DNA of 64,000 nucleotides from assembly GCF_946479765.1 (NCBI RefSeq), contig NZ_CAMLHO010000008.1:23671-87670 (forward strand), in the 5' to 3' direction. The position numbers were made by a program, and so were the translations under genes. Numbering within the stretch: position 1 is the stretch's first letter; every line of letters starts with the position of its first letter. Positions 5,541-54,390 of this stretch are shown here, one piece after another. The notes beneath the pieces are model-generated. The model had not been told where the DNA came from and did not search any database. It saw only the letters and a list, made by a program, of their open reading frames with translations. Source of the stretch: an uncultured Aliivibrio sp. (GTDB lineage Bacteria; Pseudomonadota; Gammaproteobacteria; Enterobacterales; Vibrionaceae).

Positions 5541-5724
5541 GAATACCCCAAAGTGCCGTAGTGGTCGTAGCCCTTGAACCCTCGGTTCAAGGCGGATCAG
5601 CAAAATTTACCGTAGGCTTCTCAGTACGAGCCGAGCTTGCTCAATAGTAAATAAATACTAACCCTAATTTGTGCTTATCGGCTCAGGGACATAGATCCGC
5701 CTACAAACACTCCAGGGTAAAATT
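5541..5724 (-). ncRNA. ssrS: 6S RNA
   Basis: Read on the - strand this is a ~184-base 6S RNA. Conserved pieces of the gammaproteobacterial RNA are visible: CCCTGAGCCGATA in the 5' part, GAGAAGCCTA after the central bubble, and CTTGAACCGAGGGTTCAAG (a perfect local hairpin) near the 3' end. The closing stem pairs TACCC-GGAGTG at the 5' side with CACT-GGGGTA at the 3' side. It lies between zapA and fau exactly as in E. coli. 6S RNA mimics an open promoter and sequesters sigma-70 RNA polymerase in stationary phase. The end points are set by alignment from memory and may be off by a few bases. Confidence 0.93.
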
Positions 5725-44384: not shown

Positions 44385-44695
44385 ACCTTAATTAAAAATA
44401 AGTACATAGTTGCTGGGGAATATTATGTGGTATTGATGATAATGTATTGAATAAGAGAAAAAGTAAACTAATTAGTTCATTTTTAAATTGTCACGAATAC
44501 CAGTATTATTTATTGTATAGATTTGGTTGTTAATGTGTGGTTTTTTTTAGTAAGTAAGATTTTATTTTTCTTATTTGTAATTATTTGCTGTGAGTTCTTT
44601 TCTAATAAGTAAAATAGAGTGATTTTTATCACATAATTCGTGATTTTAAATCTGCGCTATGTATACTCCTTTTCCCAATGCAAGCCGTCACATGG

Positions 44696-44734
44696 AACAG
44701 TGAATGACCCCAAGGACTTGGACCAGCTACTGTT
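44696..44734 (+). promoter_or_regulatory. Structured 5' leader of the nucleoside transporter gene
   Basis: AACAGT (44696-44701) pairs with ACTGTT (44729-44734) around an inner hairpin CCAA-GGAC-TTGG (44710-44721). It lies just before the leader ORF at 44757. I do not recognise a known riboswitch. Confidence 0.45.
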
Positions 44735-44756
44735 AAACAGCTTGTAAGGGTAAATA

Positions 44757-44870
44757 ATGAACATACTAATCTCCATCATCACTTCTTCTTGGTGCAGTCA
44801 CTCTTCGCCGATCTCGTCATCCACGATGGCACCTCCTTTTGTTTCTTCTTTTTATTCAATTGCTTCATAG
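44757..44870 (+). CDS. Putative serine-rich leader peptide upstream of the nucleoside transporter
   Basis: A 37-codon ORF (MNILISIITSSW...FYSIAS) starts at an ATG with a strong ribosome site, AAGGG six bases upstream, and stops eight bases before the transporter ATG. Thirteen of its 37 residues are serine. The coding stretch is unusually C-rich and G-poor for this genome: by direct count about 31 C to 11 G in 44761-44860, the composition of Rho-loading sites. This arrangement is that of a leader peptide controlling Rho-dependent termination or translational coupling. The peptide has no recognised family; a true small protein cannot be excluded. Confidence 0.5.
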   Translation: MNILISIITSSWCSHSSPISSSTMAPPFVSSFYSIAS

Positions 44871-44878
44871 GCGTAATC

Positions 44879-46093
44879 ATGACTATTTTATTTAGCCTAC
44901 TAGGCATGTGTGCGTTGATTTTCTGTGCATGGGTATTTTCAGAGAAACGTTCAGCAATTAATTGGAAAACGGTCTCTAGAGCTCTTTTATTACAATTCTC
45001 TTTTGCCGCTCTGGTGCTGTATTTTCCATGGGGACAAGCCGCTCTCGCCGGATTAAGCAGCGGGGTATCTAGTTTGCTTGGTTTTGCCGATGCAGGTATT
45101 GCTTTTCTCTTTGGTGATCTCGCTTCAACTGGTTTTATTTTTGCTATTCGCGTCCTTCCTATTATTATCTTCTTTAGTGCCCTTATCTCCGCGTTATATT
45201 ATTTAGGTATCATGCAAAAAATCATCGCGGTTCTTGGTGGTGCAATTCAAAAATTCCTCGGTACAAGTAAAGTAGAATCCCTCGTCGCTACTGGTAACAT
45301 CTTTCTTTCTCAAGGTGAGTCACCTCTTCTTATCCGTCCATTCCTAGCTCAAATGACTCGTTCTGAACTGTTTGCTGTAATGGCGGGTGGTATGGCATCA
45401 GTAGCTGGTAGTGTGCTTGGTGGTTATGCAGGTTTAGGGGTAGAGCTTAAATACCTAATCGCTGCTAGTTTCATGGCAGCGCCTGGTAGTTTATTAATGG
45501 CGAAGATTTTAGTTCCTGAGCAATCAACACCGGTTGACCAACATGAATTAACCATCGATAAAAGTGAACAAAGCAATGTGGTGGATGCATTAGCAAGTGG
45601 CGCGATGAACGGCATGAAAGTCGCGGTTGCTGTAGGTACTATGCTAATTGCGTTTGTGAGTGTTATCGCAATGGTAAACAGTGGCCTAGAAATGGTGGGT
45701 GAATGGTTTGGTTTTGCGGGCATTACACTGCAAACATTATTCGGTTACTTGTTTGCACCTGTTGCATGGATCATTGGTGTACCTAAGCATGAAATGATCA
45801 TGGCGGGTTCTTATATCGGTCAAAAAGTAGTACTGAATGAGTTTGTTGCTTTCATCGACTTTGTTCAACATAAAGATCAATTATCTGCTTATACTCAAGT
45901 TATCATCACGTTTGCATTATGTGGTTTTGCTAACATTGGTTCTATTGCGATTCAATTAGGCTCTATTGGTGTAATGGCTCCTGAGCGTCGTGCTGAAGTT
46001 GCGAACATGGGTTTTAAAGCGGTACTGGCTGGTACGTTAGCTAACTTGATGAGTGCATGTTTAGCGGGTCTATTCTTTAGTTTATCGATGTAA
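44879..46093 (+). CDS. Concentrative nucleoside transporter (NupC family)
   Basis: The ~404-residue multi-helix inner-membrane protein belongs to the CNT family, which imports nucleosides with H+ or Na+. Family motifs are GDLASTGFIFAIRVLPIIIFFSALISALYYLGIM, the SQGESPLLIRPFLAQMTRSEL core, GGMASVAGSVLGGYAG and the late YVLCGFANIGSIAIQLG-like stretch (FALCGFANIGSIAIQLGSIG). The track starts at 44789, but the ATG at 44879 (MTILFSLLGMC) gives the normal N-terminus, and the upstream 30 residues overlap the leader ORF. A good terminator follows. Confidence 0.93.
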   Translation: MTILFSLLGMCALIFCAWVFSEKRSAINWKTVSRALLLQFSFAALVLYFPWGQAALAGLSSGVSSLLGFADAGIAFLFGDLASTGFIFAIRVLPIIIFFSALISALYYLGIMQKIIAVLGGAIQKFLGTSKVESLVATGNIFLSQGESPLLIRPFLAQMTRSELFAVMAGGMASVAGSVLGGYAGLGVELKYLIAASFMAAPGSLLMAKILVPEQSTPVDQHELTIDKSEQSNVVDALASGAMNGMKVAVAVGTMLIAFVSVIAMVNSGLEMVGEWFGFAGITLQTLFGYLFAPVAWIIGVPKHEMIMAGSYIGQKVVLNEFVAFIDFVQHKDQLSAYTQVIITFALCGFANIGSIAIQLGSIGVMAPERRAEVANMGFKAVLAGTLANLMSACLAGLFFSLSM

Positions 46094-52920: not shown

Positions 52921-54390
52921 TTATGCTTTCTTTTTCTTTGGGTGCCATGCACCTTCTAAATCATCAAGTTCAGGGAACTTAGTACGATCAAACTCTGGCG
53001 TTTTACCCTCTTTAAGTTGAATCTCGTAATCTTTAATGATCTTGATAGCCAGCTTAGAAAGAAGGATTAAAGCAATAATATTGATTAATGCCATCATCCC
53101 CATAGAAGCATCCGCGAGGCTCCATACCACAGGTAAAGAAGCCACAGAACCAAACATTACCATTCCAAGAACACACAGACGGAAACCAAATAGGCCCTTT
53201 TTCGAGTTACCATTCAAGAACATTACGTTAGTTTCAGCGTAGCTGTAGTTCGCAATAATAGACGTAAAGCAGAACAACAGGATAGCCAATGCCATAAAGT
53301 AGCTTGTCCAACCGCCTAACTCATTGGTTAGCGCTTGTTGAAGAAGGCTTATACCTGTAGCAGCATCTGGTTGGTCCATCACACCAGAAAGCATAATCAT
53401 TGCCGCTGAAGCCGTACAGATAACGATGGTATCGACAAACACACCTAGCATTTGCACAAAACCTTGTGATGCAGGGTGGTTAGGGTTTGGTGTAGCACTT
53501 GCTGCGATGTTAGCCGCAGAGCCCATACCCGCTTCGTTTGAGAATAAACCACGAGCGATACCTGATTGCATAGCTTGCGCGATAGTATAAGCAACACCAC
53601 CAGCAGCGGCTTCTTGCCAACCGAACGCGCTCTTAACGATAAGCGTTAATACTGCTGGAACTTCAGTAATGTTCATTACTACGATGATTAATGCAATAGC
53701 AAGATAACCAATCGCCATTACAGGAACAATTTTAGATGATGCAGTAGCTACACGACGTAACCCACCCATAATGAAGAAAGCAGATACAGCAACAATGACA
53801 ACACCCATGATGGTTTTATCAAAACCAAATGAGTGATTTAACGCGTCAGTAATTGTGTTTGCTTGAACAGCATTAAAGACCAAACCAAATGCGATGATTA
53901 AGAAGATAGAGAAAAGCGTACCCATCCAACGTTGACCAAGGCCTTTCTCCATGTAATAAGCTGGGCCGCCACGGTATTGACCGTCAACGTCTTTCACTTT
54001 GTACACTTGCGCTAGTGTTGATTCAATGAATGCTGTCGCCATACCAAATAGAGCAATCACCCACATCCAGAAGATAGCACCAGGGCCACCCACCGTTAAT
54101 GCCACTGCCACACCTGCCATGTTACCCGTTCCCACGCGAGCTGCCATAGAGGTACAAAATACTTGATAAGAGCTGATGCCGTTTTCGATTTCTTGGCCGC
54201 TGCGTAAGATTTTAACTGAATGTCCAAGTTGGCGAAGCTGAATAAAGCCAAGACGTACTGTGAAGTAAACCCCCACACCAACAAGAAGGTAAACGAGAAC
54301 TTGACCCCAAAGAAGGCCATTGATCACACCAATAACGGACATCAATGCCTCGTTTATTGACTCAATTAGCGGTAAATCTGTGTTTGTCAT
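52921..54390 (-). CDS. Alanine/glycine:cation symporter (AGCS family)
   Basis: The 489-residue inner-membrane protein imports alanine or glycine with sodium. AGCS motifs are SYQVFCTSMAARVGTGNMAGVAVALTVGGPGAIFWMWV and GGPAYYMEKGLGQRWMG, and also IARGLFSNEAGMGSAANIAA and ETNVMFLNG. Ten or so helices are predicted. It lies between cadC and cadBA but points the other way. It may be unrelated to lysine metabolism. The 655-base upstream gap to cadB is AT-rich and has no glycine riboswitch, although such elements precede some Vibrio AGCS genes. Confidence 0.93.
   Translation of the reverse strand: MTNTDLPLIESINEALMSVIGVINGLLWGQVLVYLLVGVGVYFTVRLGFIQLRQLGHSVKILRSGQEIENGISSYQVFCTSMAARVGTGNMAGVAVALTVGGPGAIFWMWVIALFGMATAFIESTLAQVYKVKDVDGQYRGGPAYYMEKGLGQRWMGTLFSIFLIIAFGLVFNAVQANTITDALNHSFGFDKTIMGVVIVAVSAFFIMGGLRRVATASSKIVPVMAIGYLAIALIIVVMNITEVPAVLTLIVKSAFGWQEAAAGGVAYTIAQAMQSGIARGLFSNEAGMGSAANIAASATPNPNHPASQGFVQMLGVFVDTIVICTASAAMIMLSGVMDQPDAATGISLLQQALTNELGGWTSYFMALAILLFCFTSIIANYSYAETNVMFLNGNSKKGLFGFRLCVLGMVMFGSVASLPVVWSLADASMGMMALINIIALILLSKLAIKIIKDYEIQLKEGKTPEFDRTKFPELDDLEGAWHPKKKKA

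Follow-up and report, generated by a model that had tools for sequence, protein, structure and literature searches.

Several described bacterial leaders share parts of their design with the one reported here. In Mycobacterium tuberculosis, the ppe2 B12 riboswitch lies ahead of a translated upstream open reading frame (uORF) whose translation the downstream gene requires, chiefly by way of termination-reinitiation (PMC11260477), and the pe20 Mbox acts on a conserved uORF, with termination by Rho (PMC12810186). The guanine-class, 2′-deoxyguanosine and xanthine (NMT1) riboswitches are 5′ RNAs on purine-related genes, and the Rho-dependent attenuators of mgtA and tnaC combine a leader ORF with C-rich, G-poor RNA.

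The leader of nupC in a 64,000-nt stretch of DNA from an uncultured Aliivibrio sp. (the window, in which all positions are counted) draws a parallel to each of these systems and departs from each of them. As in ppe2, a structured RNA precedes a small translated ORF; however, the ppe2 aptamer binds B12 and is actinobacterial, whereas the nupC element is unrelated to it in sequence and some lineages do without the uORF. As in the pe20 Mbox, the leader combines a translational platform on a uORF with a possible action of Rho on untranslated leader RNA, but the Mbox senses Mg2+, and the Rho step that is shown there is for nupC only inferred. The nupC element resembles the guanine-class, 2′-deoxyguanosine and NMT1 riboswitches in being a 5′ RNA on a purine-related gene, here as a candidate aptamer, but it has no sequence or Rfam similarity to them, and none of them is tied to this CNT transporter in these families. 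Finally, while the leader ORF and the C-rich, G-poor RNA are features of mgtA and tnaC, the conserved part of the nupC leader is the upstream RNA fold, and its peptide is unconserved and evolutionarily dispensable. Our search of the open-licence literature found no nupC motif or nucleoside-transporter riboswitch for these bacteria, and two open-licence papers on genome-wide riboswitch discovery mention neither nupC-type motifs nor these genera. We propose, with a probability of roughly 0.6, that the nupC mRNA begins with a structured RNA, acting in cis and belonging to an undescribed family, that would function as a riboswitch-like translational control element.

The nupC locus and its conserved RNA element

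The nupC gene (44879–46093, + strand) encodes a CNT-family nucleoside transporter (TIGR00804, 465.5 bits against a cut-off of 442), and its true start is the ATG at 44879, not 44881. Translation of nupC from an upstream in-frame TTG at 44789 was considered and rejected, because the pN/pS of 2.2 across Aliivibrio means that this frame is not coding there. Upstream of the gene, two CRP-like half-site pairs on the + strand, GTGATTTTTATCACA at 44619–44633 and GTGATTTTAAATC at 44640–44652, are kept in all Aliivibrio relatives. The V. cholerae nupC homologs are under CytR/CRP control (PMC4581735), and by analogy the 44619–44652 segment is probably the CRP/CytR control region of nupC. Sequence and conservation point to a probable −10 box, TATACT, at 44662–44667 (+), from which the nupC transcript is predicted to start at about 44673–44676, so that the RNA element described below would be the 5′ end of the mRNA. 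An attempt to place the transcript start via the mapped start of V. cholerae VC2352 and its HapR site was abandoned, since the HapR site is not near the elements of the V. cholerae group. These elements lie, in complete genomes, on contigs of 1.07–1.11 Mb, the size of chromosome II, and the paralog behind them is therefore probably VCA0179; a mapped transcript start was looked for in VCA0179 and none was found.

The RNA element, and not the leader ORF, is the most conserved feature of the nupC leader. The element, which we call type A, is an orphan riboswitch candidate of about 76 nt that spans positions 44675–44750 (+), as delimited by covariance-model matches. A DNA search with the region matched 13 further Aliivibrio genomes, and in three genomes of another genus only 44675–44753 aligned. 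The covariance model R1, built from this segment, has matches in 201 of 331 Vibrionaceae species genomes and in 5 of 13 genera; Vibrio and Photobacterium account for many of these matches. With R2, a broader model, matches extend to 59 of 395 genomes of the order, representing nine genera that include Moritella, Aeromonas and Shewanella, and type A matches are also present at Shewanella marina and Ferrimonas loci. The element is near-invariant across Vibrionaceae and is found in genomes much too distant for the nucleotides around it to be similar. A class-wide search that went beyond the order and covered 369 genomes matched the window's own genome and no other; pattern matches in unrelated genomes (Streptomyces, Azospirillum and others) were discarded, as the covariance model gave no confirmation of them.

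The element thus has what is found in riboswitches as a kind, namely a conserved structured 5′ RNA that precedes one or few gene types across species. No family of Rfam 15 matches type A or its sister type B (see below) at E-values up to 2–5, and a known RNA family, including the known purine- and nucleoside-related riboswitches, was ruled out by these scans. Elsewhere in the 64-kb window, a 6S RNA (RF00013, 123 bits) is located at 5541–5721 on the − strand.

The association of the element with its gene is strict. The same NupC ortholog comes next in all 140 distinct type A loci (140/140; disrupted in two), and nine Vibrio genomes that lack a credible element contain only NupC paralogs of about 53–57% identity, from which we conclude that the element and the nupC ortholog were lost together. 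The three other nupC paralogs of the window's genome gave no element match, even with the filters off. In three other genera, which carry a NupC ortholog of 66–69% identity, the leader has diverged and displays a GCCCCAAGGAACUGGGC(C)CAGC-like P4, which visual inspection picks out in two of the genera and less clearly in the remaining one. These leaders (L337, L338 and L339, from genera g3, g10 and g7, respectively) score near zero with the models and possibly constitute a third sub-type of the RNA element. At L080 and L158, the element persists although the nupC behind it is disrupted or partly deleted.

Folds of the type A and type B RNAs

The type A consensus reads CCAAUACAAGCYGUCAC-(NGGA..)-GUGAAYGACC(C)CANGGAnn(n)GGACCRGC-(8-15 nt)-GCUUGUAnnGG. 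In the window, all of its helices being on the + strand, P1 is formed by TGCAAGC (44679–44685) and the conserved GCTTGTA (44740–44746), and two of its pairs are compensated in type B. The P2 arm (44687–44708) consists of GU/AC (44687–44688 with 44707–44708) and CAC/GUG (44689–44691 with 44700–44702) and holds the conserved NGGA and AAUG internal loops. Both parts of P2 are paired in 100% of cells across 21 diverse sequences, A-U replacing C-G once, in L195, and the covariation score was equalled in 1 of 500 shuffles. A model of P2 in which C15 pairs with G32 was rejected because the L195 variant and type B favor C15-G28, the CAC/GUG register. The P4 hairpin, CC..GGA..GG (44710–44721), is conserved in both types, its upper pairs being variable, and the joining strand GGACCRGC (44720–44727) is invariant. 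As the type A core is near-invariant, it shows slight covariation of its own. The base preceding GUCAC tracks the R of GGACCRGC in most loci, C occurring with A and U with G, a pattern that an isosteric C-A / U-G contact could explain. The V. harveyi-like clade has an extra hairpin, P3, inserted after NGGA, which carries eight double changes (0 of 500 shuffles). At L136, L138, L139 and L141, for example of the Vibrio tapetis type, the P3 inserts are very long (roughly 36 to 65 nt), and their sequence was not otherwise recognised.

The first-pass annotation had drawn attention to a hairpin in this region, in which AACAGT (44696–44701) and ACTGTT (44729–44734) enclose CCAA-GGAC-TTGG (44710–44721). 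This hairpin is indeed present in the minimum-energy fold, but the stability of that fold is unexceptional (z = −1.4; 17 of 200 shuffles were at least as stable), and outside Aliivibrio the matched and permuted partners of the AACAGT/ACTGTT stem behave alike (P 0.19–0.40); this particular stem is not conserved. What had been read as a hairpin is a part of the ~76-nt RNA element at 44675–44750.

The Shine-Dalgarno (SD) sequence of the leader ORF, AAGGG (44746–44750, +), is located directly 3′ of P1 and is complementary to the CCC at 44674–44676, a pairing that we call P0; the complementarity of the GG of the SD to a CC just 5′ of P1 is general across loci. Matched flanks pair slightly better than permuted ones, the difference not being significant (P 0.07–0.29), and sequestration of the SD through P0 is plausible.

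Weak covariance-model matches in families f10 and f17 led to the sister RNA, type B (L193:385–482, L197:395–493, L200:409–487 and L328–L332), which in f7, f10 and f17 directly precedes the gene for an ~87-aa membrane protein of the CBU_0592 family. A PDB sequence search with this protein gave no credible structural homolog. A covariance model built from type B alone (R3) added type B loci from f7 and f17, again ahead of the CBU_0592 gene, and it recognises type A elements of four Vibrio genomes (best E 1.7e-4); each type's model thus finds members of the other. The type B helices covary, with 7 of 20 pairs and 12 double-change cells supporting them against 0 of 500 shuffles and 0–3 cells in slid controls, and RNAalifold, unprompted, returns the same type B fold.

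The invariant bases of the element could also be contacted by a protein, and the main alternative to a riboswitch-like element is a CsrA-like protein that binds the two invariant GGAs. The element would then be the binding site of a regulatory protein, for instance of a CsrA dimer that bridges the two NGGA motifs, which are ~20 nt apart, and blocks the SD. Both motifs are invariant in types A and B, the P4 loop presents one of them, and the purine-rich SD follows. We nevertheless consider a protein site unlikely: about 30 other positions (GUCAC, GUGAAYGAC, GGACCRGC and P1) are equally invariant, which is beyond the need of a GGA binder, and in the V. harveyi-like clade the first GGA, instead of being apical, is part of an internal loop that has a covarying hairpin above it.

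The leader ORF and the C-rich leader RNA

All 14 Aliivibrio genomes carry the leader ORF, which in the window has 37 codons, MNILISIITSSWCSHSSPISSSTMAPPFVSSFYSIAS, begins with an ATG and extends from 44757 to 44870 (+). The features for which it was originally noticed are all present, as 13 of its 37 codons specify serine, AAGGG is positioned 6 nt before its ATG, and its stop lies 8 nt before the nupC ATG. At the local base composition, the chance of a 36-codon open frame is P ~0.33 and that of 13 serines is P ~0.0008; it is the comparison between genomes that clearly exceeds chance. In Aliivibrio, the pN/pS of the leader is 0.17 in frame versus 2.1 and 2.2 in the shifted frames, and the variable sites are distributed over the three codon positions as 6/5/19 (P = 7e-4, nine genomes). 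V. splendidus-like leaders give 0.17 in frame versus 1.15 and 1.81, and V. harveyi-like and Photobacterium leaders are less constrained (0.65–0.75 in the larger groups). Where close relatives share an 18-nt gap, their leaders comprise 39, 44, 59 or 33 codons, the length changing by whole codons. Judged by its pattern of substitutions, the leader ORF is translated and under purifying selection in Aliivibrio.

The gap between the leader and nupC is 8 nt in all analysed Aliivibrio loci, and most Photobacterium loci have a TAATG overlap. An SD-like AGG (44869–44871, +), the same in other Aliivibrio, overlaps the leader stop ahead of nupC. A leader end that abuts or overlaps the start of the next gene is, in its sequence arrangement, a termination-reinitiation layout, and the earlier suggestion that a translated leader is coupled to nupC agrees with both this layout and the in-frame pN/pS. 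The conservation check that had been proposed for relatives likewise came out in favor of the ORF and its C-richness, both of which are kept, though the upstream RNA is conserved more.

The leader is, however, missing from 32 of the 140 type A loci, where nupC starts 14–16 nt after P1, and five Vibrio loci (of the V. mimicus / V. metoecus type and one other) retain a frame of 1–9 codons; the element is kept in all of them. We conclude that what stays constant is the RNA element, with the leader as a relay that can be dispensed with, and that the leader ORF, being absent from loci that keep the element, is most likely not the sensor. These loci weigh against a reading in which the peptide does the sensing, with serine or tryptophan codons or a TnaC-type arrest setting the access of Rho and the RNA merely aiding initiation. 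Such a reading would draw on the ORF being under purifying selection, in Aliivibrio as in V. splendidus-like genomes, and on the C-rich leaders, and would be favored by the start of the leader, MNIL....TS.W, which we take to resemble E. coli TnaC. As the sequence, length and serine content of the peptide vary freely between clades and the RNA does not, we regard it as rather improbable.

The narrower proposal of the first-pass annotation, that serine codons are the sensed signal, was rejected. The serine fraction of the leader is 0.32 in Aliivibrio and 0.09–0.22 elsewhere, the richness thus being confined to that genus, the leader is absent at many loci, and no conserved run of regulatory codons, as in an amino-acid (serine) attenuator, was found in the leaders.

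The C-richness of the leader was confirmed. Its best 100-nt segment, at 44762, contains 31 C and 11 G, and 0.5% of such segments in the 64-kb window are as skewed. Of 106 leaders, 105 contain more C than G, with a mean skew of +0.19 versus −0.11 in the nupC reading frame. The arrangement is that of Rho-dependent attenuators, in which a C-rich, G-poor leader lies downstream of the control site, and the conserved C-over-G skew would agree with a possible Rho step. Within the window, the 100 nt with the strongest skew of C over G are found outside the leader, at 54036–54135 (40 C, 15 G). Inside the ORF, a weak terminator-like stem of six pairs (44816–44830; GTCATC/GATGGC, then T-rich) is, by eye, broken in L011. 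An attenuator based on an intrinsic terminator was rejected, as there is no conserved terminator between the leader and nupC, just this weak and poorly conserved stem.

A putative translational switch

The comparison of loci yields (i) conserved P1, P2 and P4 helices together with GGACCRGC, (ii) an SD 3′ of P1, and (iii) a translated leader that begins at this SD and ends at or next to the nupC start, and in some lineages nupC itself starts at the SD of the element. A ligand acting on the hairpin, which the first-pass annotation had named in passing, has become the leading candidate. In the riboswitch-like element that we favor, a small molecule (most simply a nucleoside or a salvage product) would bind the junction and stabilise P1 and its extension onto the SD. 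With the SD covered by the P1 extension, the leader would remain untranslated and so, via termination-reinitiation, would nupC, and the untranslated C-rich leader RNA may let Rho end the transcript. A single SD under the control of the element would serve the leader in most lineages and nupC in others. With nupC as the downstream gene, the simplest ligand would be a nucleoside or a metabolite of nucleoside salvage, and with the SD adjoining P1, the simplest logic would be that of an OFF switch. More tentatively, the element might represent a new riboswitch class for a nucleoside or a derived metabolite, the two structural sub-types of which would control NupC (often via a uORF) and the CBU_0592 protein, respectively, the latter hence being a transporter of the same compound or a related one; as a whole, this extension is possible yet doubtful.

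In V. cholerae, the sRNA VadR represses another nupC homolog, vc2352, by way of the 5′ region of that gene (PMC7695739), and the element begins at the predicted 5′ end, both of which would suit an RNA with no sensing role that either stabilises the 5′ end constitutively or is targeted by a trans-acting sRNA; this is very unlikely, as vc2352 is a different paralog, the HapR site of which is not near the element, the element is common to two unrelated membrane-protein genes, and the compensatory changes throughout the type B helices are needless for an antisense target.

As a riboswitch candidate, the element is compact, well delimited and an orphan outside Rfam, and nucleosides and salvage products are the obvious first ligand class. 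A comparison is built in, as the leader ORF intervenes in some lineages and is missing from others, and Aliivibrio fischeri ES114 and E. coli reporters are at hand as hosts for the element. The coupling of a riboswitch to a uORF, reported in mycobacteria, would extend to Gammaproteobacteria, and the CBU_0592 membrane-protein family would gain its first functional handle.

The expression platform is not uniform, since V. cholerae-group loci have neither the SD pairing nor a long leader. Five loci of the V. mimicus / V. metoecus type (L053, L055, L064, L066 and L067) have no SD right after P1 and carry ~90 nt of pyrimidine-rich RNA after their ORF of just 1–7 codons, which, by its sequence, is a different expression platform.
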